64,000 nucleotides of DNA from assembly GCA_020637165.1 (NCBI GenBank), contig JACJWN010000008.1:1-64000 (forward strand). Reading direction: 5' to 3'. Source of the stretch: Mycolicibacterium sp. GTDB taxonomy: Bacteria > Actinomycetota > Actinomycetes > Mycobacteriales > Mycobacteriaceae. How positions within the stretch are numbered: the first letter of the stretch is position 1; each line of letters opens with the position of its first letter. The notes under the pieces were generated by a model. The model had not been told where the DNA came from. It searched no databases and saw only the letters and a program-made list of their open reading frames with translations. The position numbers and the translations under genes are program-made. This document shows, one piece after another, positions 8,634 through 26,932 of this stretch.

Positions 8634-11156
8634 TCAGTCGGTGGCGAAGGCCGCCGCGGCGTCGCGTTGGAGATCGACGTAGGCCTCCTCGCTGACGTCG
8701 AACGCGACACCCTGGATCTCGCCGCCGGTGAACCTGCCGGGAGTCGTGTACTGATCGGACACATTGTCCCCGCTGTCATAACCCACGCAGAGGCCGTCCC
8801 CGGAGAGGGTGAACTTGCCGATCTGGGCCCGCATCGGCCCCCTGGCGACCTCGTTGCCGTCGACGTACAACACGGTGGTGCCCAGCGATTCGCCGTATTC
8901 ACCGGCTTTCTCCCGGGTGAACTCCATGCCCAGCGAGTGCTTGCCGGGTGTCAGCGGCGGGGAGACGAAATCCTGTTCGGGCTTGATCCCCAGGAAGTTG
9001 TAGACATAGTGCAGCCGGCCGTCCTTGATGAACAGGGTGTGCCCGCCGAACCGGGAACCGTGGGCGAAGATCACCCCGGCGGCGTCGGCCTGCAGATCGA
9101 CGTTGGCGATGATCTTGTAGGAACGGCCCCTGATGCTGACCGCCACGCCCTCGGGCACCGGCGCGGTGTCGGGGTAGTAGATGTAGCGGTCCCGCGGCGG
9201 CTCGGCCTGGGGCCTCGGGTTGGTCAGCACCTCGGTGGCGGACCGGTCATCCAGGGGCAGTACGAAATTATTCTTGGCCTCTTCGAACCAGACGTCGATG
9301 AGTTCCTTGAGCTTGTCGGGGTTCTGGTCGGCGAGGTTGGTCGACTCCGAACGGTCCTCCTCGACGTGGTAAAGCTCCCAACGGTCCTGATCGAAGTGGC
9401 CCTTGTTGCTGATCGGGGCGTGTAGCGCGGCGGCCTTCCAGCCGTCTTTCCAGATACCGCGGGTACCCAGCATCGCGTAGTACTGCTGCTCGCGAGTGGT
9501 GGGTGCCTTGGGGTCGTCGAAGCTGTAGCGCATCGACACCCCGTTGAGCGGGTACTGCTTGACACCGTTGTACTCCTGCGGCATTTCGAGCCCGGCCACG
9601 TCGAGCACGGTGGCGGCCACATCGGTGGCGTGGTGGTACTGATTGCGGACCTCGCCTTTGGCCTTGATCCCCTTGGGCCACGAGATGACCATGGGATCAC
9701 ACGTTCCCCCGGCGAACTGGCTGTAGCGCTTGAACATCTGGAACGGGGTGGAGAAGGCCACCGCCCAGCCGGTCGGGTAGTGGTTGTAGGTGTCCGGGCT
9801 GCCCAGGGTGTTGAGGTACTTCATGTTCTCCGACAGTTCATCGGGGTAGCCGTTGAAGAACTTGTTCTCGTTGACCGACCCGTTGGGCGAGCCCTCCCCG
9901 GAGGCGCCGTTGTCGGCGCAGTAGAACACGATGGTGTTCTCCAACTGCCCGGTCTGTTCCAAGTAGTCGATGATCCGGCCGACCTGGGCGTCGGTGTACT
10001 CCGAAAAGCCGGCGTACACCTCGGCCATCTTCGAGAACAGTTCCTTCTCCTCGGCGCTGAGCGTATTCCACGGCCGCACATCGTCATTGGCCACCGCAAT
10101 GTCCTCGGGCAGCGGGTTGATCGGGGTCATCTTGGTGCCCGCGGGCATTACGCCCTTTTCGATCATCCGCGGCAGCACCCACTCCCGGTAGGCCTCGTAG
10201 CCATCATCGAACTTGCCCTTGTATTTGTCGATGTAATCCTGCGGAGCATGATGCGGCGCGTGGTTGGCACCCGGGCAGAACCACATGAACCACGGCTTGG
10301 ACGGGTTAGACGACTGCTGGTCGCGCAGCATCCGGATCGCGTTGTCGGCCAGATCCTTCGACAGGTGATAGCCCTCGTCAGGGCCATAGGGCTGCTCGAT
10401 GAATCGGTTGTCCTCGACCAGATCGGGGAACCACTGATTGGTCTCCCCGCCCAGGAACCCGTAGAACCGGTCGAAGCCCATCTGCAGCGGCCACTCAGAT
10501 TTGCTGCCGCCGCTGGAGACGTCCTCCTCGGGAACGTTGTGATTCTTGCCGATCCAGAAAGTGCTGTAGCCGTTGTCCTGGAGCACTCGCGGAACCGGGG
10601 CGCACTGCGCCGGCAGCCGGGCCGCAGAACCCGGGAACCCGGTCGAGGCCTCGGTGATGGCCGAGAACCGGTTGACGTGGTGGTTGCGTCCGGTCAGAAA
10701 GCAGGACCGCGTCGGTGAACACAGCGCGGTGGTGTGCCACTGGGAGTACATGACCCCGTTGTCGGCCAGCTTCTGCATGACCGGCATCTCGATCCGCCCG
10801 CCGTAGGGCGACCACGCCGCCAGCCCGGTGTCGTCGTAGAGCACCACAAGGATGTTCGGCGCATCCTCGGGCGCCTTCTTCAGCTCGAAGGGCGTCCAGT
10901 CCTCCTTTGAATCACGAACATCCAACTCGATCTTGCCGTCGAAGCCCTCGTTGATCCCGGTGCCGTAGCCGGGTGGTCCCTCGCCGCCGGCGCTGGCCCC
11001 CTCGGAGCCCTTGTTGTCGCAGCCGGCAACCAGTGTCCCCGCCGCGGCGACGCCGACTCCGGCCGCCAAGCCACCGAGAACGGTACGTCTGGGAACTCCG
11101 GGGCGGCCCGGTCCCTCGTCCCGCGCATCAACGGAATCCACAGCTGGAACGGTCAT
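8634..11156 (-). CDS. Tat-exported lipoprotein arylsulfatase (Cys-type)
   Basis: The product has 840 residues; ATG 11156 follows GGGGAGG by 7 nt. The leader has the twin-Arg RR23-24 in VPRRTVLGG, a hydrophobic core and a lipobox LVAGC (Cys46), so the folded enzyme is likely exported by Tat and lipid-anchored. The sulfatase core starts at NILVVLYDDTG (metal Asp pair) and contains Cys146 in CSPTRS, the C-x-P-x-R formylglycine motif, followed by LTGR. The C-terminal ~190 residues (from AVSIRGRSYKII) form a jelly-roll, lectin-like module. Related to Mtb AtsD/AtsB-type enzymes. It needs a formylglycine-generating enzyme, not in this window. The substrate (sulfated glycan or lipid) is unknown. Adjacent genes give no pathway hint. 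Confidence 0.87.
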   Translation of the reverse strand: MTVPAVDSVDARDEGPGRPGVPRRTVLGGLAAGVGVAAAGTLVAGCDNKGSEGASAGGEGPPGYGTGINEGFDGKIELDVRDSKEDWTPFELKKAPEDAPNILVVLYDDTGLAAWSPYGGRIEMPVMQKLADNGVMYSQWHTTALCSPTRSCFLTGRNHHVNRFSAITEASTGFPGSAARLPAQCAPVPRVLQDNGYSTFWIGKNHNVPEEDVSSGGSKSEWPLQMGFDRFYGFLGGETNQWFPDLVEDNRFIEQPYGPDEGYHLSKDLADNAIRMLRDQQSSNPSKPWFMWFCPGANHAPHHAPQDYIDKYKGKFDDGYEAYREWVLPRMIEKGVMPAGTKMTPINPLPEDIAVANDDVRPWNTLSAEEKELFSKMAEVYAGFSEYTDAQVGRIIDYLEQTGQLENTIVFYCADNGASGEGSPNGSVNENKFFNGYPDELSENMKYLNTLGSPDTYNHYPTGWAVAFSTPFQMFKRYSQFAGGTCDPMVISWPKGIKAKGEVRNQYHHATDVAATVLDVAGLEMPQEYNGVKQYPLNGVSMRYSFDDPKAPTTREQQYYAMLGTRGIWKDGWKAAALHAPISNKGHFDQDRWELYHVEEDRSESTNLADQNPDKLKELIDVWFEEAKNNFVLPLDDRSATEVLTNPRPQAEPPRDRYIYYPDTAPVPEGVAVSIRGRSYKIIANVDLQADAAGVIFAHGSRFGGHTLFIKDGRLHYVYNFLGIKPEQDFVSPPLTPGKHSLGMEFTREKAGEYGESLGTTVLYVDGNEVARGPMRAQIGKFTLSGDGLCVGYDSGDNVSDQYTTPGRFTGGEIQGVAFDVSEEAYVDLQRDAAAAFATD

Positions 11157-11874: not shown

Positions 11875-12609
11875 TCAGTGGCTCCGGTTACGGCGGTCTC
11901 GCCGTGGCTCGGGGGTCTGGCCGCCGAGGTGGTGGGCCCCGGTGGGTTCGGCCGCGGCCACGGGGGGATATCCGGCGATGCGCGAGCTCTTCCTGCCCGC
12001 TGGGGCGGGTTCGAGGATGCCGAGTTTGCGGGCTTTTTCGATCCAGCTGACGATGGTGCGGGGGGTGACGTTGTGGTTGGCGGCCATGGTTTGGGGGTAG
12101 GGCCGCTCGGCGGTGAGGTACTCGCGGGCGATGTCGGTGAGGAATTCCCGAGTCAGCCGATAACCGGGGCGGGGGCGGGTCACCTCGGGGTAGTGGTCGG
12201 TGGGCAGGTCGGCGGTGAAGGGGTCCTGGCCGCTGTCGATGAGGCGGGGCACCAGGCGGGTGACGATCTCCACCGGGGTGTGCCACCGAAAGTGCTCTTG
12301 CAGGTACAGGGTGTCCAGGCCGCCGTCGAGGTGGTCACCAGCCTGGATAGCGATCGCGAGCAGCACGGGTTGGTCGTTGCGCAGTCCCACGGTGGCTTCG
12401 ACCGACCAATTCAGCTGCCCGTCGGGGTCGATGTCGATGATGTCGACGATCAGCGGCATCGGTACCGGAGTGCCGCCGGGACTGGTCCAGATCTGCCGCG
12501 GGGCGTCGGTGTCGAGCCGGACGCGCGAGGAGCGGCCGACCGGACGGCCGCCGAAACCGGCCTCTGCGGCGCGTGGGGCTTCCGGGGACAGGTCGCGGTC
12601 GGAGGACAT
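11875..12609 (-). CDS. Hypothetical protein with C-terminal helix-turn-helix
   Basis: The product has 244 residues. Residues ~45-120 look like a beta-rich domain (MPLIVDIIDIDPDGQLNW, later TVGLRNDQPVLLAIAI). Residues ~155-205 hold a clear HTH: TREFLTDIAREYLTAER followed by AANHNVTPRTIVSWIEKA, as in site-specific DNA-binding proteins. The tail is basic and Pro-rich. I do not recognise the family; similar layouts occur in actinobacterial proteins of mobile or accessory regions (memory, low certainty). It sits between a toxin relic and the PGRS gene, divergent from the latter, so it might regulate it. Confidence 0.6.
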   Translation of the reverse strand: MSSDRDLSPEAPRAAEAGFGGRPVGRSSRVRLDTDAPRQIWTSPGGTPVPMPLIVDIIDIDPDGQLNWSVEATVGLRNDQPVLLAIAIQAGDHLDGGLDTLYLQEHFRWHTPVEIVTRLVPRLIDSGQDPFTADLPTDHYPEVTRPRPGYRLTREFLTDIAREYLTAERPYPQTMAANHNVTPRTIVSWIEKARKLGILEPAPAGRKSSRIAGYPPVAAAEPTGAHHLGGQTPEPRRDRRNRSH

Positions 12610-12803
12610 ATTCGCTAGTAAACCGGGGCGCTGATGCCATCACCCGGAGGCTTCGCGCACCAACCCTCCATCTTTGGCCGGCGACTCTCCATATCTTTCG
12701 AGTCTTGGGTCTGTCGGCCGTCGCCTGAGGAAAGACTGAGCACGTTCTAGGTGGCGCAGCGGGTCGGCCTGCGGCGGGATTTCAGTGTGAGGAGAGTGCT
12801 GTG
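12610..12803. promoter_or_regulatory. Divergent spacer upstream of the PGRS gene
   Basis: 194 bp between divergent starts, so it must carry the promoter of the PGRS gene and probably of the HTH gene. GAGGAGAG at 12789-12796 is a strong ribosome site 7 nt before ATG 12804. I could not pick a confident -10/-35 pair. Confidence 0.4.
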
Positions 12804-15800
12804 ATGGGTGCTGCGGTGAACAGTCGGCCGGTGACTAGTGGTCGCGCCGCGGCCTATGTGGGCCGGATCGGGGCGTTGGCGGTGGCCCTCGGGGTGGGCT
12901 CGGCCATCGCGGCGATGCCACTGGCCGCCGCTGACCGCCAAGGCGGGCAGGGCTCGACCGGATCCTCGCAAACCGGGTCCTCGCAAACCGGGTCCTCGCG
13001 GACGGTCTCATCAGCAAGCCGGGCCGCCTCAGCGTCGCGCGCCATGCCCTCGGCCGCCGCCGCTGACCTCGATCGGGCCTCGGCTGCCGAACTCTCCCAA
13101 CCCGACGTCCCCTCGTCGCACAGCGGCTCCTCGCGGGCGCGCGGCGGATCGTCCAGGGTTGCCGCCGCGGTGCCCGACGGTGCTGACCGCAGATCGACCG
13201 GCGGCGGTGGGCCAGCTCAATCCGCACCCTCAGGTGATACGGGATCTCAGCACGGCGTGACTACCGATGCGCTCGTCGGTCTCGTCGCCGCCTCGGGTGC
13301 GGCTTCCACGCTGCCGACGGTCGATGACGAAGTTTCAGTGGGTTCGGCGCCAGCGATGAGCGTCGCCACGTCAGCGGCGTCGGTGGTGGTGGCTCCCGCG
13401 ACGGTGAACCCCGGCAACGCCGCTCAGGCCGCCCCGACCGCACCGGCGGACGCAGTGGCCCCGGCCGGTGGTGCGCTTCGCGGCGTGGGCAGCCGTCTGC
13501 TGGCCTGGCTGGGCGGCGGCAGCGGCGGTGATGGGCCCGCGGCGGCGGCGCTGGCGTGGACGGTGGCCGCTGCCAGCCGCCGGGAGTTGGGCCGCCCGAC
13601 GGCTGCGGGCAGCGCCGCGGCCGCGACAAGCCTGGGCGAGCCGGCGGGCCTGACGGCGATCCCAACTGCCTCGGCGTCGGCGGTCACCGCGGCCGCGGTG
13701 GGTAACCCGCTGGCCGATCTGTTCCGGTTCTTCATCGGTGACGGCACCGCCGACAACCCCAACGCCGGCATCCTGTTCGGCAACGGCTACACCTACACCC
13801 AATACGAGGGTGCGTGCACCAGCGGGGCCTGCAACGGCGGCAACGGCGGCCTGATCGGCAACGGCGGCGGCGGCTACGCCGGCGGTAACGGCGGGGCCGC
13901 TGGCTGGTTCGGCACCGGCGGGGCCGGCGGAGCCGGGGTGGCCTCAGTTAATGGCGGTGTGGGCGGTAACGGCGGGGCCGGTGGGTTGCTGCTGGGCAAC
14001 GGCGGTGCCGGCGGTAGCGGCGCGGCGTCGTCCACCTCCGGCGCGGCGGGCGGCAACGGCGGCAACACCGGCCTGCTGTCCTTGTGGGGCACCGGCGGCA
14101 AGGGTGGTGCGGGCGGTGCTGGAGGCATGCGCGGCGGCGACGGCGGCAAAGGCGGCAGTGCCGGCCTGGTGAACGGCGTCGGCGGCATTGGCGGCGCTGG
14201 AGGGGACATTTCAGGCACCGGCGGAGAGGGCGGCAACGGCGGCGCCGGTGGCACGGGCGGATTGCTGCTCGGCGAAGGCGGCAACGGCGGCAACGGCGGC
14301 GCTGCACTCGATTCCGCCGGGGCGGGCAACGGCGGCAACGGCGGCGCCGGGGGCGACGCGGGGCAGCTGTCGCTCAACGGAGCCGGCGGAACCGGTGGCG
14401 CCGGCGGAGCCGGCGGGGACCTGGGCCTAGGTGGTGGCGGTGGGGTCGGCGGCCGGGCGGGCGTGGTCGGCAACGGCGGCACCGGTGGAGACGGTGGGGT
14501 TGCGGGCGGCAACGGTGGCGAGGGCGGTGGCGGTGGACTGCTGCTCGGCGACGGCGGCGGCGGCGGTATCGGCGGCGCTGCGCGTAATTCCGGCGGCGCC
14601 GGCAACGGCGGCAATGGTGGGAGCACAGGCCTGTTGTCGATCCTGGGATACGGCGGCTACGGCGGCGATGGCGGAGTCGGAGGGGTTGGCACCAACGGAC
14701 AAAACGCGACGACGCCCGGCGGTAACGGCGGCGATGCGACCGGCGCCGGAGTCGGCGGAAACGGTGGGAATGGCGGTGACGGCAGCTGGGTCTTCGGCGC
14801 CGGCGGCAACGGCGGGGCCGGTGGGTCCGGCGGGACGGGCGGCAACGGCGGCAACGGTGCGGACGGGGCTGACGGCACCAACCCCGGCCAGGCCGGACAG
14901 AACGGCGGCAACGGCGGGGCCGGCGGCAGCGCTGCCGGCGGGCAGGGCGGAGTCGGCGGCGAAGGCCGGTTCCTGTTATTGATCTCCAGTCCCGGTACCA
15001 CCGGTAACGCCGGAACCAGCGGAAGCGGTGGTGTCGGCGGCAACGGCGGCGCGGGCGGCAGAGGTGCGGCTGGAGATGCCACCACGCCCGATGGCGGCGC
15101 GGGCGGCAAGGGCGGGACCGGCGGCAATTCGGCGACCGGTCAGGCCGGTGACGGCGGTGGCGGCGGGGCTGGCGGTGACGGCTATTCCCTTGCGGGCGTG
15201 GCGGTGGCCGGCGGTGACGGCGGGGCTGGCGGTGACGGCGGCGCCGGCGGGACCGGCGCAACTGTCGGAGGCCAGGGCGGCAACGGAGGGCTGGGGGGTA
15301 GCGGCGGCAACGGCGGAACCACCTCGGCGGCTGGCAGCTCCGGGGCTGATGGCGGTGCGGGCGGCAAGGGCGGCGCGGGCGGGGCCGGCGGATCGGTCAG
15401 CGCATCTACGGGCGTCGGCGGGGCCGGCGGAAACGGTGGAGCCGGCGGTGCCGGCGGCAGTGGTGGTGACGGCGTTGATGGGCAGGACGGCAAGCCGGCC
15501 GGTTTGGCGTTCACCACCCGCACCACTGCCAACGGTCTGGGTTCAACTCTCGTGCAGGGCGTGTACGCGGTGGGCTCCACCGTCTACGCGGCCACAAGTG
15601 CAGACACCCAGAGCAGCGGCGGGTTGAGCATCTCCACCGACGGCGGGGCGACGTTCGTCAACCGCACCACCGCCAACGGCCTCGGCTCCAACGAGGTGGC
15701 GGCGGTCTACGCCGAGGGCAGCAGCGTCTACGCGGCAACCGGCCCGAGCTTCGGCGTGGGGGGCGGTCTGGGCATTTCCACCGATGGCGGGGTGACGTTC

Positions 15801-18566
15801 ACCAACCGCACCACTGCCAACGGTTTGGGTTCTAACGACGTGCGCGGAGTGTTTGCGCAAGGCAACGCAGTGTTCGCCGCCACAGCGCCGTTCTTCGGCG
15901 TGGGCGGCGGGCTGAGCATCTCCACCGACGGCGGTCAGACTTTTGACAACCGCACCAACGCCAACAGCAACCTGGGGGACGACTTCGTCTCTGCGGTGTA
16001 CGTCGTGGGCGCCACCGTGTACGCCGCCACCGGCGGTGGGTTGAGCATCTCCACCGACAGCGGGACCACCTTCACCAACCGCACCACCGCCGACGGACTG
16101 GGCAACAACCTGGTGCACGGGGTCTACACCGAAGGCACCATCGTGTACGCCGCCACCGGCGGTGGGTTGAGCATCTCCACCGACGGCGGAACAACCTTCA
16201 CCAACCGCACCACCGCCGATGGACTGGGCAACAACGACGTACTCGGCGTGTATGCCCAAGGGTCCAGCATCTACGCCGCCACCGACGGCGGGTTGAGCAT
16301 CTCCACCGACGGCGGAACAACCTTCACCAACTACACCACCGCCGACGGCTTGGGCAGCAACCTGCTGTTCGGCGTTTTCGCGGTGGGCAGCACCGTCTAC
16401 GCGGCCACCTCCGAACCCGGCGGGCTGGGCATTGGCATCCCCTCTGCCGCGGTCGCGGCAGGGCAGAAGGGCGGCAACGGCGGCAACGGTGCGGCCGGGG
16501 GGGCCGGTGGTGCCGGCGGCGCCGGCGGAGCGGCCCCAACTGGGGGTTCGGCGGGAGCGGCCGGTGACGGCGGTGACGGCGGTGACGCCGGTGCGGGAGG
16601 TGCGGGCGGCACCGGGGGCAACGGAGCCGAGGGCTCTACCGCCGCCCTCGATGGCGGTGCCGGCGGCGACGGGGGCAACGGCGGTCTCGCGGGCTCGGCC
16701 GGCCAGGGAGGCGCGGCAGGTGGACCCGGTGCCAATCCCGGCACCACCGGTGCCGCGGGCACGGGCGGCAACGGGGGCAACGGCGGCATGGGCGGCAAAG
16801 GCACGAACGGCGATGCCACCACTCCCAACGGCGGGACCGGCGGGACCGGCGGGACCGGCGGTAACGCGACCGGCACGGGCACTGTCGCGGGGAACGGCGG
16901 GACCGGCGGTGCCGGTGGTGACGGCGCGGCGGGAACGGCCGGCTCGGCGGGGTCAGCTGGCGCCACTGCCGGTGCCGACGGCACAAACGGCGGCGACGGC
17001 GGGACCGGCGGCGACGGCGGGACCGGCGGCAACGGCGGTGCCGCCGGCACCGCCAGCCAGGGAGCCTCGGCCGGGACGGCCGGCAATGGCGGCGACGGGG
17101 GTGCCGCCGGCGTGGGCGGCGCAGGCGGCGCCGGGGGCAACGGGGCCGCCGGCTCTGCCGCCGCCCCGGACGGCGGTGACGGCGGCGACGGGGGCGCCGT
17201 CGGTCTCTGGGGCTCGGCCGGCCAGGGAGGCGCCGCGGGTGGCCCCGGTGCAAATCCCGGTGCCACCGGTGCCATCCCCACCACCGAGGCGAACGGAGGC
17301 CGCGGCGGGAACGGCGGGGTGGGGAACACGTCACAAGGAAGCCTCCCGACGCTGGACACCAGCATCGATGTGGGGGGCTTCCCCGACGTCTCGGCGCTCA
17401 CTCTGGACGGGAGCCGCCTTTATGTCACGAACAACTCCGGCCCCGGCAACAGACCGCAGATCATGGTTATCGACACCGCAACCAACACGTTCTTGCAGGG
17501 AATCCAGTTCACCAACGACAGAGTCCCTTCCTCCCTCGCGTTCGCGCCAGACGGGATGCGACTCTGGGTGACGCGGTACGACACCACGAACCTGGCCATC
17601 CCGGGTGACGTGGTCGTGATCGATACCGTTCCGGGCAGCCCGACCTACAACACGGTGATCCAAACCCTGCCGGCGGTCACTCTGGAACCCGTTGCGGTCG
17701 TATTCAGCACCGATGGGTCCACCGCCTACGTCGCCAGCAAGTCTGCTGCCAGCCCGCAGGTGGTCGTGATCAACACCGCCACCGGAACCACCACAACGAC
17801 CATCAACCTGTCGGGCCCGGTACAAGCGCTCGCAATCAACCCGGTCAGTCCGCGCCTGTACGCGGCGACGTCTGCCGGGCTCTCTCCGGGCATCGTGGAA
17901 ACGATCGATACGGCCACCAACACCACCGTCGGCGCCGGCGTGGCGGTGGGGCTCTTCCCGACAGGATTGGCGGTCACTCCTAGCGGCGCCAGCCTCTACG
18001 TCACCAACACCGCAAGTGACACGGTGACAGTGATCGATACCGCCACCCAGACCGTCACGGACACCATCCCCGTCAGTGGCGGCCCGACCGCCGTGGCGAT
18101 CACCCCGGACGGCACGCTCGCCTATGTCGCCAACGGCGGCGGCGGAACGCTGTCGACGATCAGCATCCCCAGCAACGTGGCACTGGGCACGACCACGATC
18201 GGCCCGCTCCAACGCTGGGTGACGGTCAATGCGACAGGAACGAAACTGTATGTCAGCTATGCGGGCAGTGATGGCAAGGTGGCGGTACTCACTGGCAGCG
18301 CGTTGACCCCGGCGGGCAACGGCGGTGCGGGCGGTGATGGCGGCAATGCAGGCCGCTACGGCGACGGCGGGAGCGGCGCCCCCGGCGGAAACGGCGGAGA
18401 CAGCGCCGGCACCGGCAGCGGCACAGCCGGAACCGCTGGCAGCCCCGGAACCGCCACCCCTTACGGCTTCGGCGGAAGCAGGGGAGTGGGCGGCTTCGGC
18501 GGAACCGGCGCAATCGCCGGTAACGGCGGCAACGGCGGTGACGGCGGTGACGGGGGCACCGGGTAG
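12804..18566 (+). CDS. Giant Sec-secreted PGRS protein with two beta-propeller-like domains, no PE domain
   Basis: 1,920 residues from ATG 12804 (GTG 12801 lies directly before). Residues ~15-45 form a signal peptide ([19 protein letters not shown], Ala-rich cleavage region before DRQGG). Then come a Ser/Ala-rich disordered stretch to ~295; a junction motif with [20 protein letters not shown] (~305-330) and a CTSGAC pair; PGRS block 1 (GGxGGx, ~345-895); six Asp-boxes (STDGGxTF) with seven (V/I)(Y/F)AAT strands (~900-1213); PGRS block 2 to ~1510; seven YVTN-like strands ([42 protein letters not shown]; ~1513-1833); and PGRS block 3 to the end. PE_PGRS proteins normally start with a ~100-residue PE domain for ESX export; here a Sec leader replaces it. 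Function unknown; a surface-displayed binding protein is likely. Confidence 0.85.
15505..16440 (+). repeat. Asp-box repeat region inside the PGRS gene
   Basis: Seven units of ~41-52 codons, six with STD(G/S)GxTF followed by xNRTTAxGLG and a VYAAT strand. Units 4-6 are nearly identical at DNA level (for example GGCGGTGGGTTGAGCATC at 16031 and at 16160), pointing to recent tandem duplication. Seven units suit a seven-bladed propeller. Confidence 0.75.
17340..18300 (+). repeat. YVTN-type beta-propeller repeat region inside the PGRS gene
   Basis: Seven degenerate units of ~40-50 codons carrying an LYVTN-like strand, several followed by (V/M)VIDTAT and by xxLAxxPDG. This is the YVTN/YncE seven-bladed propeller pattern. 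It sits between the second and third GGxGGx blocks. Confidence 0.75.
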
Positions 18567-20675: not shown

Positions 20676-21143
20676 ATACAGGGTTTAGTTCTGCAGCTGA
20701 CGCGCGCCGGCTTCCTGCTGTTGCTGTGGCTGTTCATCTGGTCGGTGTTGCGTATCCTGCGCACCGACATCTACGCCCCCACCGGGGCGGTCATGGTGCG
20801 GCGCGGCCTGCCGTTGCGCGGAGCCCGCTCACCCCGTCGTCACAACCGGAGCGCCGCGCGCTACCTGGTGGTGACCGAGGGCGCGCTGGCCGGCACCCGG
20901 ATCAGCTTGGGCTCCCAGCCGGTGCTGCTCGGTCGTGCCGATGACTCGACACTGGTACTCACCGACGACTACGCCTCGACCCGTCACGCCCGGCTGTCAC
21001 CCCGCGGCCAGGACTGGTTCGTCGAGGATCTCGGCTCCACCAACGGCACCTACCTGGACCGCTCGAAGGTGACCACCGCGGTCCGGGTGCCGATCGGTAC
21101 GCCGGTGCACGTCGGCAAGACGGTAATCGAGTTGCGTCCGTGA
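20676..21143 (+). CDS. fhaB: FHA-domain protein FhaB (FipA), apparent ATA start
   Basis: Starting at ATA 20676 the product has 155 residues, the size of M. tuberculosis FhaB, and begins (I/M)QGLVLQLTRAGF as that protein does. GGAGGG at 20663-20668 sits 7 nt upstream, ideal spacing. No ATG, GTG or TTG occurs in frame between the upstream region and TTG 20721, which would remove 15 residues and part of the membrane anchor (FLLLLWLFIWSVL). The C-terminal FHA domain has LLGRADDSTL, STRHARLS and DLGSTNGTYLD. FhaB/FipA links PknA/PknB signalling to FtsZ and FtsQ. Its stop overlaps the pstP start. Confidence 0.85.
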   Translation: MQGLVLQLTRAGFLLLLWLFIWSVLRILRTDIYAPTGAVMVRRGLPLRGARSPRRHNRSAARYLVVTEGALAGTRISLGSQPVLLGRADDSTLVLTDDYASTRHARLSPRGQDWFVEDLGSTNGTYLDRSKVTTAVRVPIGTPVHVGKTVIELRP

Positions 21144-22687
21144 CACTGACCCTGCGCTACGCCGCCCGCAGCGACCGCGGACTTGTCCGCGCCAACAACG
21201 AGGATTCGGTCTACGCCGGCCCGCGTCTACTGGCACTGGCCGACGGCATGGGTGGGCACGCCGCCGGCGAAGTGGCCTCGCAGTTGGTGATCGCCGCGCT
21301 GGCTCAACTCGACAACGACGATCCGGGCGGCGATCTGCTCGGCAAGCTCGACCGTGCAGTACGGGTGGGCAATTCCGCGATCGGCGAGCAGGTCGAGCAG
21401 GACCCTGACCTTGACGGGATGGGCACGACGCTCACTGCGATCCTGTTCGCCGGCGACCGGCTGGGCCTGGTCCACATCGGCGATTCCCGCGGCTATCTTC
21501 TGCGCGACGGTGAACTGACCCAGATCACCAAGGACGACACCTTCGTCCAGACACTCGTCGACGAGGGCCGGATTACCGCGGACGAGGCCCACAGCCACCC
21601 GCAGCGGTCATTGATCATGCGGGCGCTGACCGGACATGAGGTTGAGCCGACGCTGATCATGCGTGAGGCCCGGGAAGGGGATCGCTACCTGCTGTGCTCG
21701 GACGGTCTGTCGGATCCGGTCAGGCACGACACCATTCTCGAAGCGATGCAGATCCCGGAGGTCGAGGCGGCCGCTGAGCGACTCATCGAACTGGCCTTGC
21801 GCGGCGGCGGACCGGACAACGTCACGGTCGTGGTGGCCGATGTGGTCGACAACGACTACGCCGGGCAGACCCAGCCCATCCTGGCCGGCGCGGTGTCCGC
21901 CGACGATGACGACGATGCCGCCCCGCCGAACACCGCCGCCGGCCGTGCCTCGGCGATCGCCCCCCGCCCCCCCGCGGCGAAGAAGGTCGCTCCTGAACAG
22001 GATCCACCGCCCAAGCCCCGGTCACGGAAGCGAACCCTGCTGGCCGCCGCCCTGGTGCTGCTGATCGCCCTTGGCGGGCTGGGCATCGGCTACAAGATCA
22101 TCCGCGGCTACTACTACGTCAGCGCCGACGGCGAGACCGTCGCCATTATGCGCGGCGTCCAGGGCTCGGTCCTCGGAATCCCGCTGCAGAGCCCGTACCT
22201 GCTCGGCTGTATCAACGACCGCGGTGAGCTGTCCCAGATCAGCTACGGCCAGGACCACGCCGGGATGGGCTGTGAACTGATGCGGCTGCAGGATCTGCGC
22301 CCCTCGGCCCGTGAACAGGTATCCACCGGGCTGCCGGCCGGAAGCCTCGACGAGGCGATCGGCCAGTTGAACGAACTGGCTCGCGGTTCCCTGCTGCCGT
22401 TGTGCGCGCCGCCGCCGACCCCGTCGCGAAGTACCGCCTCCACTTCCCCACGCAGCGTGACGCCCTCGCCGCCGAGCTCGACGAGCACGGAGACCACGAC
22501 CACTACAACCGCGGCGCCCGCTACAACCACGGCGCCGGGTACGACGACGACAACCTCGACGACCGCGCCGACCACAACGGCGTCCGGAACGGGGACATCA
22601 GGGACGCCGGCGTCGCCGACCTCCCCGGTGACCACCCTGCCCGCCGCACCGCAGAAACCGGGCACCGACTGCCGGGCGGCGGCATGA
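21140..22687 (+). CDS. pstP: PP2C-type Ser/Thr phosphatase PstP
   Basis: 515 residues. GTG 21140 overlaps the fhaB stop (GTGA). The cytosolic PP2C domain (residues 1-~240) has RANNEDSV, ADGMGGHAAGE, HIGDSRGY and GGPDNVTVVVAD with the metal-binding aspartates. A basic Pro linker precedes one membrane helix (TLLAAALVLLIALGGLGIG, ~298-318), followed by an extracellular domain of ~110 residues. The last ~75 residues are almost only Thr, Ser, Ala and Pro, a mucin-like tail likely O-mannosylated. PstP removes phosphates placed by PknA and PknB, encoded downstream in the same operon, and acts on CwlM and PbpA. Confidence 0.93.
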   Translation: MTLTLRYAARSDRGLVRANNEDSVYAGPRLLALADGMGGHAAGEVASQLVIAALAQLDNDDPGGDLLGKLDRAVRVGNSAIGEQVEQDPDLDGMGTTLTAILFAGDRLGLVHIGDSRGYLLRDGELTQITKDDTFVQTLVDEGRITADEAHSHPQRSLIMRALTGHEVEPTLIMREAREGDRYLLCSDGLSDPVRHDTILEAMQIPEVEAAAERLIELALRGGGPDNVTVVVADVVDNDYAGQTQPILAGAVSADDDDDAAPPNTAAGRASAIAPRPPAAKKVAPEQDPPPKPRSRKRTLLAAALVLLIALGGLGIGYKIIRGYYYVSADGETVAIMRGVQGSVLGIPLQSPYLLGCINDRGELSQISYGQDHAGMGCELMRLQDLRPSAREQVSTGLPAGSLDEAIGQLNELARGSLLPLCAPPPTPSRSTASTSPRSVTPSPPSSTSTETTTTTTAAPATTTAPGTTTTTSTTAPTTTASGTGTSGTPASPTSPVTTLPAAPQKPGTDCRAAA

Positions 22688-22712
22688 CGGTAAACCCGGA
22701 GGCTGCGCGGTT

Positions 22713-24107
22713 ATGACGACGGCGCCCCAGTCTCCCGTTCGCATCACCCCGCCACTTCCGAACCGCCGCAACTCCGAACTGGTGTTGCTGTGCTTCGCCA
22801 CGTTCATTACCGGCGTCGCCCTGCTGATCGTGGAGGCCAACCAGGAACAGGGCGTGCGCTGGGACCTGCTCAGCTACACCCTGGCGTTTCTGACCCTGTT
22901 CGTCTGCGCGCACCTGGTGATCCGGCGCTACGCCCCCTATGCCGACCCGCTGCTGCTGCCCGTGGTGGCGTTGCTGAACGGTCTGGGGCTGGTGCTCATC
23001 CACCGACTCGACCTGGTCCCGGGCTCATCGGAGGGGCCCAGCGCGCAACAGCAGATGCTGTGGACACTGGTCGGGGTCATCGGCTTCTCCCTGGTGGTGG
23101 CCTTCCTCAACGACCACCGGATGCTGGCCCGCTACGACTACATCTGCGGGGCGGTCGGTCTGGTGCTGCTGGCCATCCCCGCCCTGCTGCCGGCCAGCCT
23201 GTCCGAGACCAACGGCGCCAAGATCTGGATTCGCCTGCCCGGCTTCAGCATTCAGCCCGCAGAGTTCTCGAAGATACTGCTACTGATCTTCTTCGCCGGG
23301 GTGCTGGTAGCCAAACGCCACCTGTTCACCAGCGCGGGCAAGCATTTCCTCGGCATGGATCTGCCGCGTCCGCGCGACCTGGCGCCGCTCTTGGCCGCCT
23401 GGATCATCTCGGTCGGGGTGATGGTCTTCGAGAAGGACCTCGGTACCTCCCTTCTGCTGTACGCCTCGTTCCTTGTGATGGTCTACATCGCGACGGAACG
23501 GCTCAGCTGGGTGGTGATCGGACTCGGTCTGTTCGCGGCGGGAAGTGTGATGGCCTATCACCTTTTCGGCCACGTTCGCGACCGGGTGCAGACCTGGCTG
23601 GACCCGTTCGCCGATCCGGAAGGCGCCGGTTACCAGGTGGTGCAGTCCCAGTTCAGCTTCGCAACCGGGGGAGTGTTCGGCACCGGGTTGGGCAACGGGC
23701 AGCCCGGAACAGTGCCGGCCGCGTCGACCGACTTCATCATCGCCGTCGTCGGCGAGGAGCTCGGGCTGGTGGGTCTGGCCGGCGTCCTGATGCTCTACAC
23801 CATCGTGATCGTGCGCGGCCTGCGCACCGCCATCGCGGTGCGGGACAGTTTCGGCAAACTGCTGGCGGCGGGGCTGGCCTCGACGTTGGGCATCCAGCTG
23901 TTCATCGTCGTCGGTGGCGTCACCGGGCTCATCCCGCTCACCGGACTGACCACTCCGTGGATGTCCTACGGCGGTTCCTCCCTGGTCGCCAACTACCTGC
24001 TGCTGGCCATCCTGGTCCGGATCTCTCACGCGGCTCGCCGGCCGCTGAACACCAGTCAGCGCACCCCGATCGCGGCCGCGCACACCGAGGTGATCGGCCG
24101 GTCATGA
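22713..24107 (+). CDS. rodA: SEDS peptidoglycan glycosyltransferase RodA
   Basis: 464 residues; ATG 22713 lies 10 nt after GGAGG (22698-22702). About ten to twelve membrane helices carry SEDS-family signatures: GAKIWIRLPGFSIQPAEFSK and, late, the GLTTPWMSYGGSS motif. RodA polymerises lipid II for wall elongation and works with the class B PBP encoded next, whose start overlaps its stop (ATGA). Mtb Rv0017c equivalent. Confidence 0.93.
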   Translation: MTTAPQSPVRITPPLPNRRNSELVLLCFATFITGVALLIVEANQEQGVRWDLLSYTLAFLTLFVCAHLVIRRYAPYADPLLLPVVALLNGLGLVLIHRLDLVPGSSEGPSAQQQMLWTLVGVIGFSLVVAFLNDHRMLARYDYICGAVGLVLLAIPALLPASLSETNGAKIWIRLPGFSIQPAEFSKILLLIFFAGVLVAKRHLFTSAGKHFLGMDLPRPRDLAPLLAAWIISVGVMVFEKDLGTSLLLYASFLVMVYIATERLSWVVIGLGLFAAGSVMAYHLFGHVRDRVQTWLDPFADPEGAGYQVVQSQFSFATGGVFGTGLGNGQPGTVPAASTDFIIAVVGEELGLVGLAGVLMLYTIVIVRGLRTAIAVRDSFGKLLAAGLASTLGIQLFIVVGGVTGLIPLTGLTTPWMSYGGSSLVANYLLLAILVRISHAARRPLNTSQRTPIAAAHTEVIGRS

Positions 24108-25579
24108 ATACCTCGCTGCGACGGGTCTCGATGATGGTGATGACGCTGGTGGTGCTACTGCTGATCAACGCCACGGTCACCCAGGTGTTCCGGGCCGACG
24201 GGTTACGGTCGGACCCGCGCAACCAGCGGGTGTTGCTCGACGAGTACTCCCGTCAGCGCGGACAGATCACCGCCGGCGGAGAGCTGCTGGCCTACTCGGT
24301 GTCCACCAACGGCCGGTACCGGTTCCTGAGGGTCTACCCGGAACCGTTCGCCTACGCCCCGGTGACCGGCTTCTATTCGCTGCGGTTCTCCAGCACCGGA
24401 CTCGAGCGTGCCGAGGACCCGGTGCTAAACGGCTCCGACGAGCGGCTGTTCGGTCGGCGGCTGGCCGATTTTTTCACTGGCCGCGACCCCCGCGGGGGGA
24501 ACGTCGACACGACGATCCTCCCGCGGGTGCAGCAGGCCGCCTGGCGTGGGCTGCAGCAGAGCTGCGACGGCGGGTGCCGGGGATCGGTGGTGGCTCTGGA
24601 ACCTTCCACCGGGAAGATCCTGGCGATGGTGTCCGCACCGTCCTATGACCCGAACCTGCTCGCCACCCACGACCCTGAGGCGCAGGGGCAGGACTGGGAG
24701 AGGCTGCGCGACGAGGCCGGATCACCACTCACCAACCGCGCCATTGCCGAGCGCTACCCACCGGGCTCGACGTTCAAGGTGATCACCACCGCAGCCGCGC
24801 TGCAAGCCGGGATGTCCGAGGACGAACAGCTGACGGCCGCCCCGAAGATGACACTTCCCAACAGCACCGCGACTCTGGAGAACTACGGCGGCATGCCCTG
24901 CGGGAACGCCCCCACGGCACCGTTGCGGGAGGCCTTCGAGCGGTCCTGCAACACCGCGTTCGTCGAGCTCGGCATCCGCATCGGCCCCGAGGCGCTGCGC
25001 AGCACGGCCGAGGCGTTCGGATTCGACAATCCGCCGGAGCCGATTCCGCTGCAGGTCGTGGAGTCCACGGTCGGACCGATGGGCGATGCCGCCGCGGTCG
25101 GCATGTCAGCCATGGGGCAGAAGGACGTGGCGGTGACCCCGCTGCAGAACGCGATGGTTGCCGCCGCGATCGCCAATTCCGGTGTGGTGATGAAGCCCTA
25201 TCTGGTGGATCGCCTCGTGGGGCCTGATCTCACCGATGTCAACACCACATCGCCGAGCGAGCAGCGCCGTGCGATCTCGGCGCAGGTCGCCGCTAAGCTA
25301 ACAGATTTGATGGTCGGCGCGGAGAAGTTCACCCAACGGGACGGGGCGATCCCCGGTGTCCAGATCGCCTCCAAGACGGGTACCGCCGAACACGGCACCG
25401 ATCCCCGGAACACGCCGCCGCACGCCTGGTACATCGCCTTCGCACCGGCGCAGGACCCGAAGGTCGCCGTCGCGGTCATGGTGGAAAACGGGGGAGACCG
25501 GCTCTCGGCGACCGGCGGCGCCCTGGCCGCGCCGATCGGACGTGCAACCATCGCGGCGGCGCTGCAGGGGGCCTCATGA
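24104..25579 (+). CDS. pbpA: Penicillin-binding protein PbpA (class B transpeptidase)
   Basis: 491 residues, the Mtb length. ATG 24104 overlaps the rodA stop. One N-terminal anchor (MMVMTLVVLLLINATVTQVF) precedes an extracytoplasmic dimerisation region and the transpeptidase domain: STFK (active Ser, in PPGSTFKVITT), SCN (in FERSCNTAF) and KTG (in ASKTGTAEH). It crosslinks peptidoglycan stems at the septum. In mycobacteria PbpA is a PknB substrate. The stop overlaps the first 35-bp repeat that separates it from pknA. Confidence 0.93.
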   Translation: MNTSLRRVSMMVMTLVVLLLINATVTQVFRADGLRSDPRNQRVLLDEYSRQRGQITAGGELLAYSVSTNGRYRFLRVYPEPFAYAPVTGFYSLRFSSTGLERAEDPVLNGSDERLFGRRLADFFTGRDPRGGNVDTTILPRVQQAAWRGLQQSCDGGCRGSVVALEPSTGKILAMVSAPSYDPNLLATHDPEAQGQDWERLRDEAGSPLTNRAIAERYPPGSTFKVITTAAALQAGMSEDEQLTAAPKMTLPNSTATLENYGGMPCGNAPTAPLREAFERSCNTAFVELGIRIGPEALRSTAEAFGFDNPPEPIPLQVVESTVGPMGDAAAVGMSAMGQKDVAVTPLQNAMVAAAIANSGVVMKPYLVDRLVGPDLTDVNTTSPSEQRRAISAQVAAKLTDLMVGAEKFTQRDGAIPGVQIASKTGTAEHGTDPRNTPPHAWYIAFAPAQDPKVAVAVMVENGGDRLSATGGALAAPIGRATIAAALQGAS

Positions 25580-25645
25580 GCCCCCGCAGCCGAGCGAAGC
25601 GAGGCAAGCAATGAGCCCCCGCAGCCGAGCGAAGCGAGGCAAGCA
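25576..25645 (+). repeat. Exact 35-bp tandem duplication between pbpA and pknA, encoding overlapping 12-codon ORFs
   Basis: 25576-25610 and 25611-25645 are identical, and the next 8 bases repeat the beginning again as the pknA start (ATGAGCCC). Each unit begins ATGA and reads [12 protein letters not shown] then stops: the first mini-ORF ends at 25614 inside the second ATGA, and the second ends at 25649 inside the pknA ATGA. pbpA itself stops at 25579 within the first ATGA. Since 35 is not a multiple of three, each step changes frame. GAGGCA before each ATG is the ribosome site. Confidence 0.9.
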
Positions 25646-26932
25646 ATGAGCCCGCGCGTGGGGGTGACGCTGTCCGGTCGCTACCGGTTGCAGCGTCTCA
25701 TCGCGACCGGCGGCATGGGCCAGGTCTGGGAGGCCGTCGACAGCCGTTTGGGTCGCCGCGTTGCCGTCAAGGTGCTCAAGCAGGAGTTCTCCTCCGACCC
25801 CGAGTTTCTGGAACGCTTCCGCGCCGAGGCCCGCACCGTCGCCATGCTCAACCACCCGGGGATCGCGGCCGTGCACGACTACGGTGAGACCGATATCGAC
25901 GGCGAAGGCCGGACCGCCTATCTGGTGATGGAACTGATCAACGGCGAGCCGCTGAATTCGGTGATCAAGCGCACCGGCCGGCTGTCGCTTCGGCACGCTC
26001 TGGACATGCTCGAGCAGACCGGCCGGGCACTGCAGGTGGCCCACGCAGCCGGCCTGGTGCACCGCGACGTCAAGCCCGGCAACATCCTGATCACGCCCAC
26101 CGGGCAGGTGAAGCTGACCGACTTCGGGATCGCCAAGGCGGTCGACGCCGCCCCGGTGACCCAGACCGGCATGGTGATGGGCACCGCGCAGTACATCGCC
26201 CCGGAACAGGCGCTGGGCCAGGACGCCACCGCGGCCAGTGACGTCTACTCCTTGGGAGTGGTCGGCTACGAAGCGGTGTCGGGCAAACGCCCGTTCATGG
26301 GCGACGGTGCCCTGACGGTGGCGATGAAGCACATCAAGGAGACGCCGCCTCCGCTGCCGCCGGACCTGCCGCCGAACGTTCGCGAACTCATCGAGATAAC
26401 GCTGGTGAAGAACCCCGGTGTGCGCTACCGGTCCGGCGGGCAGTTCGCCGACGCGGTTGCCGCGGTGCGCTCGGGACGCCGCCCGCCGCGGCCGAATTCC
26501 GCACCCACCATCAAGGCCACCCCGGCGGCGATCCCCGGGTCCCAACGGGCCGCGGTGGAGGCGGCCCGCGCGGCCGCCGTCGCCCGGCCGCGAACGGGTA
26601 CCGGGCATCGGACCCCGCCACCGGCGCGGCGCAGTTTCAGTTCCGGGCAGCGGGCGCTGCTGTGGGCCGCCGGCGTGCTCGGCGCGCTGGCCATCATCAG
26701 CGCGATCCTGATCGTGCTGGCGGATCGGGAGCGCCGCTCGAACACACCGGTCGAACAGACCGTCACCGACACGATCACCCCGGACGCGCCGGAGGTGGCG
26801 GTGGAGCCCGGCGCTTTCACCGAACCGGCTGCACCCGATGGCGACGGCGCAGCGGTGCTGCCCGCCGCACTGTGGCACGCCGGCACCGCTCCGGCGGCCA
26901 TGATCGCCCCCGACGACGAGACACCGCGATGA
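25646..26932 (+). CDS. pknA: Ser/Thr protein kinase PknA
   Basis: 428 residues. The kinase domain (residues ~10-275) has [16 protein letters not shown], the catalytic loop [11 protein letters not shown] and the activation loop [17 protein letters not shown] Pro/Ala-rich juxtamembrane stretch, one membrane helix ([20 protein letters not shown], ~340-360) and a ~70-residue extracellular tail follow; unlike PknB it has no PASTA domains. PknA controls cell shape and division (Wag31, FtsZ, FhaB). Its ATG is the last in a chain of three ATGA junctions, and its stop overlaps the pknB start. Confidence 0.93.

Follow-up and report, generated by a model that had tools for sequence, protein, structure and literature searches.

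A PGRS protein of Mycolicibacterium with a signal-peptide-like start in place of a PE domain and two putative seven-bladed propellers

Discussion of PGRS proteins usually centres on pathogens, in which they are led by PE and depend on ESX-5. A gene at 12804-18566 of the window (the whole stretch of DNA analysed here, 64,000 nucleotides of a Mycolicibacterium sp.) encodes a PGRS protein with a different start.

The open frame spans 12801-18566 on the + strand and, read from the ATG at 12804, gives 1920 residues plus a stop (12804..18566), with GTG codons at 12801 and 12816 as alternative starts. The start codon is preceded by GAGGAGAG; a scan of 12600-12850 for a sigma-70-type promoter and a terminator found neither. 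GC3 is 0.78-0.87 across every part of the gene. The gene lies upstream of genes for a PP2C phosphatase, an FtsW/RodA protein and a protein kinase (21140-26932), an order that we take to resemble the pstP-rodA-pkn cluster near the origin. Its product, encoded throughout on the + strand, begins with a signal-peptide-like N-terminus (residues 1-44, 12804..12935), followed by a linker rich in Ser, Ala and Pro (residues 45-299, 12936..13700) that belongs to no Pfam family and contains a conserved 13-residue motif (13548..13586; consensus PLxWxxxAxxRRE from 76 sequences). A conserved junction (13701..13853) holds the protein's only two cysteines, 338 and 343. The remainder consists of a first PGRS (GGx) block (residues 346-895, 13839..15488), an Asp-box array (residues 903-1216, 15510..16451), a second PGRS block (residues ~1217-1510, 16452..17333), a YVTN array (residues 1514-1832, 17343..18299) and a third, short PGRS block (residues 1837-1920, 18312..18563); no hydrophobic C-terminal anchor is seen in the translated 1920-aa sequence. 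The three GGx blocks described in an earlier note on this DNA hold as a layout, and in all three the glycine autocorrelation is maximal at lag 3 (0.71-0.76). GGx counts above those of all 500 shuffles are confined to the first two, the count of 13 in the third lying below the shuffle maximum of 15. The first block contains recurring hydrophobic doublets, 6 of whose 12 spacings measure 25-32 residues; such doublets could form the hydrophobic edge that the PGRS sail model has in the excerpts consulted of PMC9436101.

The window gene is one of many. When the genome was searched with the junction, ten places were found, namely the window gene and nine paralogues, all nine of which have the signal (by alignment), a low-complexity linker, the junction, GGx sequence and then differing ends: a YVTN array in L040, long helical-looking sequence in L037, other ends in L042 and L043, and GGx repeats for the rest of a 3132-residue frame in L044. 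The cysteine pair is present in all ten and, counting from the signal motif onward, is the sole pair in seven. The signal also exists without the junction, with 26 signal matches versus 10 junctions in this genome. L037 and L044 are adjacent and divergent members (G000:C28 near 415000-421577), one frame reaching the contig end and the other exceeding 3100 residues. A search of genome contigs found 115 stretches that encode a relative, and the best 80 of the 115 were analysed, 75 of them having an upstream frame uncut by the contig. Record titles start with MAG for 69 of these best 80, several naming lakes or groundwater; the others come from M. pinniadriaticum, M. litorale F4 (two), M. frederiksbergense AC80, M. 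rhodesiae JS60, M. sphagni ENV482, Mycobacterium sp. M26 (two), Mycobacterium sp. ENV421, Mycolicibacterium sp. CH28 and an uncultured Williamsia. Six records titled as Bifidobacterium breve MAGs (L073, L080, L083, L102, L108, L113) hold mycobacterial-type family genes and look mislabelled. Plasmid carriage was considered and rejected: the 352-aa N-terminal piece and the Asp-box domain had no match in 72,556 plasmid records. PGRS proteins with a signal-like start, a linker and a two-cysteine junction form a family, apparently an unnamed one. The arrangement, put forward initially as undescribed, was indeed not met among the matches listed in open-licence PMC papers, but it is no singleton, given the ten paralogues and the wider family; moreover, a second frame, L164, has both propeller types between GGx-rich flanks (its start is cut by the contig).

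When the window protein is aligned with its nine paralogues, its N-terminus displays a basic n-region, a hydrophobic core and an A-x-A site. These are the features of a Sec-exported protein, with a putative cleavage site, and the alignment supports the suggestion that a Sec-type signal stands in the place of PE, at least as a signal-peptide-like start. A signal motif pattern fits 55 of 76 N-termini (54 of 75 without the window), versus a mean of 0.0 in shuffles; a cruder hydropathy rule finds signals in 72 of the 76, but in a mean of 20.4 of 76 after shuffling. Several paralogues carry long stretches ahead of the hydrophobic core, and their starts are uncertain. Residues 1-299 match no family in Pfam or NCBIfam, and the junction matches none in Pfam and only one, by chance (E 0.17), in NCBIfam. 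Neither the window protein nor any of its nine paralogues or of the 80 relatives has the pattern GRPLI/GRPLV.

Could a PE domain have gone unseen because the start was misassigned, the frame shifted or the assembly faulty? The excerpts consulted of PMC11939664 do mention that PGRS genes suffer from sequence errors and that N-termini are in doubt. However, Pfam searches with residues 1-299, the junction piece and residues 1-319 found no PE domain in the window protein, just as had been claimed of it, and the same library detects the one PE of this genome. That sole PE above the cut-off is on another contig, C27, and the start without PE recurs in nine paralogues and in 75 N-termini from other records, with no PE in any of the 76 N-termini (the window and the 75 relatives with an uncut upstream frame) at E 0.01. 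A missed PE domain was accordingly rejected, and a concealed one is scarcely credible. Another way out would be the type VII system that remains in this genome, acting through an unrecognised signal. An ESX-3-like cluster (L184, G000:C27:423500-443400), to which the sole PE belongs, does contain PE, PPE, WXG100, EspG, EccD, subtilase, EccE and EccA genes. However, EccB was not found in the 94.3% complete assembly, while 96 of 98 sampled genus genomes have at least one, the exceptions being this genome and G005 (84% complete). The places where eccB and eccC would be expected from the usual gene order hold other genes, e.g., one resembling succinate dehydrogenase/fumarate reductase. Of three matches to FtsK_SpoIIIE, two fall below the cut-off and the strong one lies in a frame of 906 residues that is interpreted as FtsK, leaving no clear EccC; PPE-SVP matches number 0. 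Furthermore, the only YxxxD/E within residues 1-340 falls at 331, inside the junction, and classical signal features are present instead. At this completeness eccB and eccC may be absent from the assembly and not from the organism, and L184 possibly reflects either an assembly gap or a mycobacterium that lacks a functional type VII system. Type VII export seems quite unlikely for this protein, and the different export route proposed in the earlier note is rated likely on sequence grounds, because EccB, a clear EccC and PPE-SVP were not found in the 94% complete assembly.

The distribution of the junction across mycobacteria was also examined. In a genus sample the junction occurs in 23 of 98 genomes. 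PPE-SVP is an ESX-5-linked family, and the junction is found in 0 of 42 genomes with at least five PPE-SVP versus 23 of the 56 others (Fisher 2.7e-7, uncorrected for descent), being missing in 33 of those 56. Likewise, it is found in 0 of 37 genomes with at least ten PE matches versus 23 of 61 others (Fisher 3.2e-6, uncorrected for descent; at most 46 candidates were scored per genome in the PE tally). At least three copies of the signal module are present in 1 of the 42 PPE-SVP-rich genomes versus 43 of the 56 others (5e-15, again uncorrected for descent). Such tallies ignore descent and thus show how the junction is distributed, not how often the association arose independently; most PE-rich mycobacteria belong to a single clade, and consequently few independent events stand behind the numbers. 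A family-wide sample yielded the junction in 10 of 201 genomes and 3 of 31 genera, four of the ten only at E 8.7e-5 to 8.7e-4. ESX-5 itself is present in slow growers only, according to the excerpts consulted of PMC4418733.

What the PGRS blocks would carry was addressed by counting units, with profiles built from the arrays themselves. The window Asp-box region has 7 units and six boxes, as first described, except that five boxes, rather than six, read STDGGxTF, the sixth being STDSGTTF. PF02012 (BNR) matches this region in five stretches, at 23.7 versus a cut-off of 27 bits. The seven-unit YVTN region that had been claimed is confirmed by the profile count, and it matches TIGR02276 (beta_rpt_yvtn) at 54.2 versus a cut-off of 27.85 bits. 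Further arrays were sought across 396 genus genomes; a match was present in 15 (in six of them only at 1e-5 to 1e-3), and 13 stretches were taken. With Asp-box units counted at a unit score >10 and no match dropped by hand, complete arrays have 7 units in the window, L080, L110 (one contig with L170, counted once), L161, L164, L165, L167 and L171, and 14 in L160 and L169. Arrays cut by the contig, in L162 (4 units) and L163 (5 units), were left out, and L166, L168 and L172 have <3 units each. YVTN arrays have 7 units in the window, L164 (leaving out one match of score 2), L073, L127 and L104, and 14 in L093; L040 and L077, which are 83% identical, reach 7 only when the half-units at the two ends are combined and the parts of a unit that a glycine insert interrupts are counted as one. 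The YVTN arrays of L057 (interrupted), L085 and L053 (both cut) were left out, and stretches found by tblastn in other frames of L041, L070 and L084 lie outside the count. In all, 10 of 10 complete Asp-box arrays and 8 of 8 YVTN arrays have 7 or 14 units, although the arrays are homologous and so not independent. A tree of the eight complete 7-unit Asp-box arrays had support for 0 of 5 inner branches. Among the tree arrays, the one closest in identity to that of the window is L167 (G311:C115), at 64%. The stretch around it has 56.9% GC and the N-terminus is unlike the family, which points either to contamination during binning or to horizontal transfer.

Do the arrays close? The window Asp-box unit starts are 41 to 50 residues apart, as might be expected if the arrays were open solenoids or antigens of variable unit number. 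However, the number is 7 or 14 in 18 of 18 complete arrays, and the Asp-box arrays share the position of the seam. The last unit of all ten complete Asp-box arrays ends at profile position 20-32 of 40, and inspection by eye shows the type of strand that this unit lacks (FTTRTT, FTNKTT, FANKT, etc.) directly before the first unit. The partial last unit and the preceding strand look like the velcro seam of a closed propeller. Solved homologues also exist. In phmmer searches against the PDB, the best match of the YVTN array is 1l0q (2.3e-45), and those of the Asp-box array are 2cn2/2cn3 (5.2e-8) and 4a2l (2.3e-5), all of which we take to be propeller structures; other Asp-box matches (E >=0.035) look like chance. 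The longest exact DNA match between two window Asp-box units is 43 bases, which makes a short-read artefact in the unit number unlikely, and a repeat-number artefact was rejected for this reason. Given the unit numbers, the seam and the solved homologues, open arrays are highly unlikely, and the earlier view that the unit numbers suit seven-bladed propellers stands up to counting. A different question is whether the heads are enzymes, with the Asp-box array acting on glucans as a xyloglucanase- or F510_1955-type glycosylhydrolase-like domain. The phmmer match to the 2cn2/2cn3 xyloglucanase and a match of NF045728 glycosylhydrolase to the Asp-box region (E 3.4e-13) would agree with this idea; however, the NF045728 score is 49.4 versus a cut-off of 175 bits, and the domain has four Glu, no Trp and no FRIP-like motif in 322 residues. 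Sialidases are marked by a FRIP motif and a catalytic Arg triad. A sialidase was rejected, since no FRIP-like motif is present and six of the seven Arg of the domain recur at the same place in successive units. The absence of these marks (no FRIP, no Trp, four Glu) favours binding over catalysis. The likeness to glycosylhydrolases leaves an enzyme possible for the Asp-box head, but enzymatic heads are, on balance, doubtful.

Comparison with the relatives shows that heads, stalks and export signals can be exchanged as modules. The Asp-box head stands between PGRS blocks in the window and L161, and after a YVTN array with GGx-rich flanks in L164 (left end cut by the contig). It is borne on collagen-like GPT/GAT or GPAGPQG stalks after the same junction and a short PGRS in L080 and L110 and, with a variant signal, in L163, L165 and L171; in L160 and L169 it follows cadherin-like repeats (a likeness judged by eye). 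PGRS and collagen-like rods thus look interchangeable. Other heads occur as well. In L101 (a Mycolicibacterium MAG, 9617-10459), the aspartyl peptidase domain PF20729 PE-PGRS_C (7.5e-70), presumably the domain type of PecA, stands behind signal and junction on a PGRS protein. PecA is described, in the excerpts consulted of PMC6819658, as an aspartic protease of the cell surface, with PE_PGRS proteins among its substrates. Relatives also end in a PF00144 beta-lactamase-family domain (L099), PhoX (L111) or cadherin/Ig domains (L121), and in L057 (12197-14152) the YVTN array is interrupted by a pectate-lyase-like stretch. The ends of L125 and L114 match no family, and that of L051 only a weak one.

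Taken together, these results have led to a reading of the protein that we consider reasonably probable, in which a PGRS family member would be exported by Sec and displayed in the mycomembrane, with two seven-bladed propellers as its binding heads. Export would use the general Sec pathway rather than ESX-5, and the signal peptide would be cut after A-x-A. The linker and the junction, the latter presumably closed by a disulphide between the conserved cysteine pair, would lead into the PGRS, which, if the published PE_PGRS model applies, would pack as a polyglycine-II sail in the outer mycomembrane. The two propellers would then lie outside and bind most likely a polysaccharide or another surface ligand. 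A broader proposal, offered tentatively and with somewhat more doubt than belief, is that two parallel routes of PGRS display exist: PE-rich species would use PE and ESX-5, and species without the PE/PPE expansion would use a Sec signal, linker and disulphide-loop junction. The two routes would share a pool of heads (the YVTN propeller and the PE-PGRS_C protease), and the Sec side would also swap PGRS for a collagen-like stalk. If so, the junction would replace PE in getting the protein across the mycomembrane or in fixing it there. With ten genes in one genome, a family that lacks PE and has a Sec-type signal would make the PGRS sail a general mycobacterial display device, independent of ESX-5 and of infection. 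It would also provide non-pathogen systems for the study of how PGRS is seated in the outer membrane, and a testable answer to a question left open in the consulted text of PMC11939664, namely, which N-termini precede PGRS in fast growers and where these proteins end up.

Among known systems, the surface layer protein 1l0q has a similar YVTN array (2.3e-45), presumably in a different host protein with a different anchor. The xyloglucan hydrolase 2cn2/2cn3 has similar repeat units (5.2e-8); it is an enzyme, whereas the window head has no recognised catalytic residues. PE_PGRS proteins, which are ESX-5 substrates, share the PGRS (GGx) rod, the variable cargo and, in relative L101, PE-PGRS_C. They differ in having PE and GRPLI where a signal-like start, a linker and a cysteine junction are found here, and the present family occurs in genomes without PE/PPE expansion. 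Among the matches listed in open-licence PMC papers, a set apart from subscription journals and preprints, there was no signal-peptide PGRS family, no Asp-box propeller in a PGRS protein and no collagen-like-stalk family. Thus, in the sources as consulted, PGRS in fast growers and YVTN on PE proteins are already known, while a family combining signal, junction, Asp-box head and collagen-like stalk was not met. The excerpts of PMC4758615 report PE proteins that carry YVTN propellers and aspartic proteinase domains; the YVTN cargo is alike, but those proteins are PE-led and the term 'Asp-box' is absent from that text. A review of 2025 (PMC11939664, in excerpts) reports PGRS-domain proteins in the fast growers M. 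smegmatis and Mycolicibacterium, whose annotated N-termini are questionable, whose PE needs experimental confirmation and whose localisation is disputable. Like the present protein, these carry PGRS outside the PE-rich pathogens with a doubtful N-terminal PE, and they possibly belong to the same family; the difference is that no signal, junction, family or propeller is described in those excerpts. Finally, the lipase domain of LipY follows PE, PPE or a signal peptide, depending on the species (PMC7550000, in excerpts), and thus provides a precedent for the exchange of PE and a signal peptide, but in a single enzyme rather than in a PGRS family.
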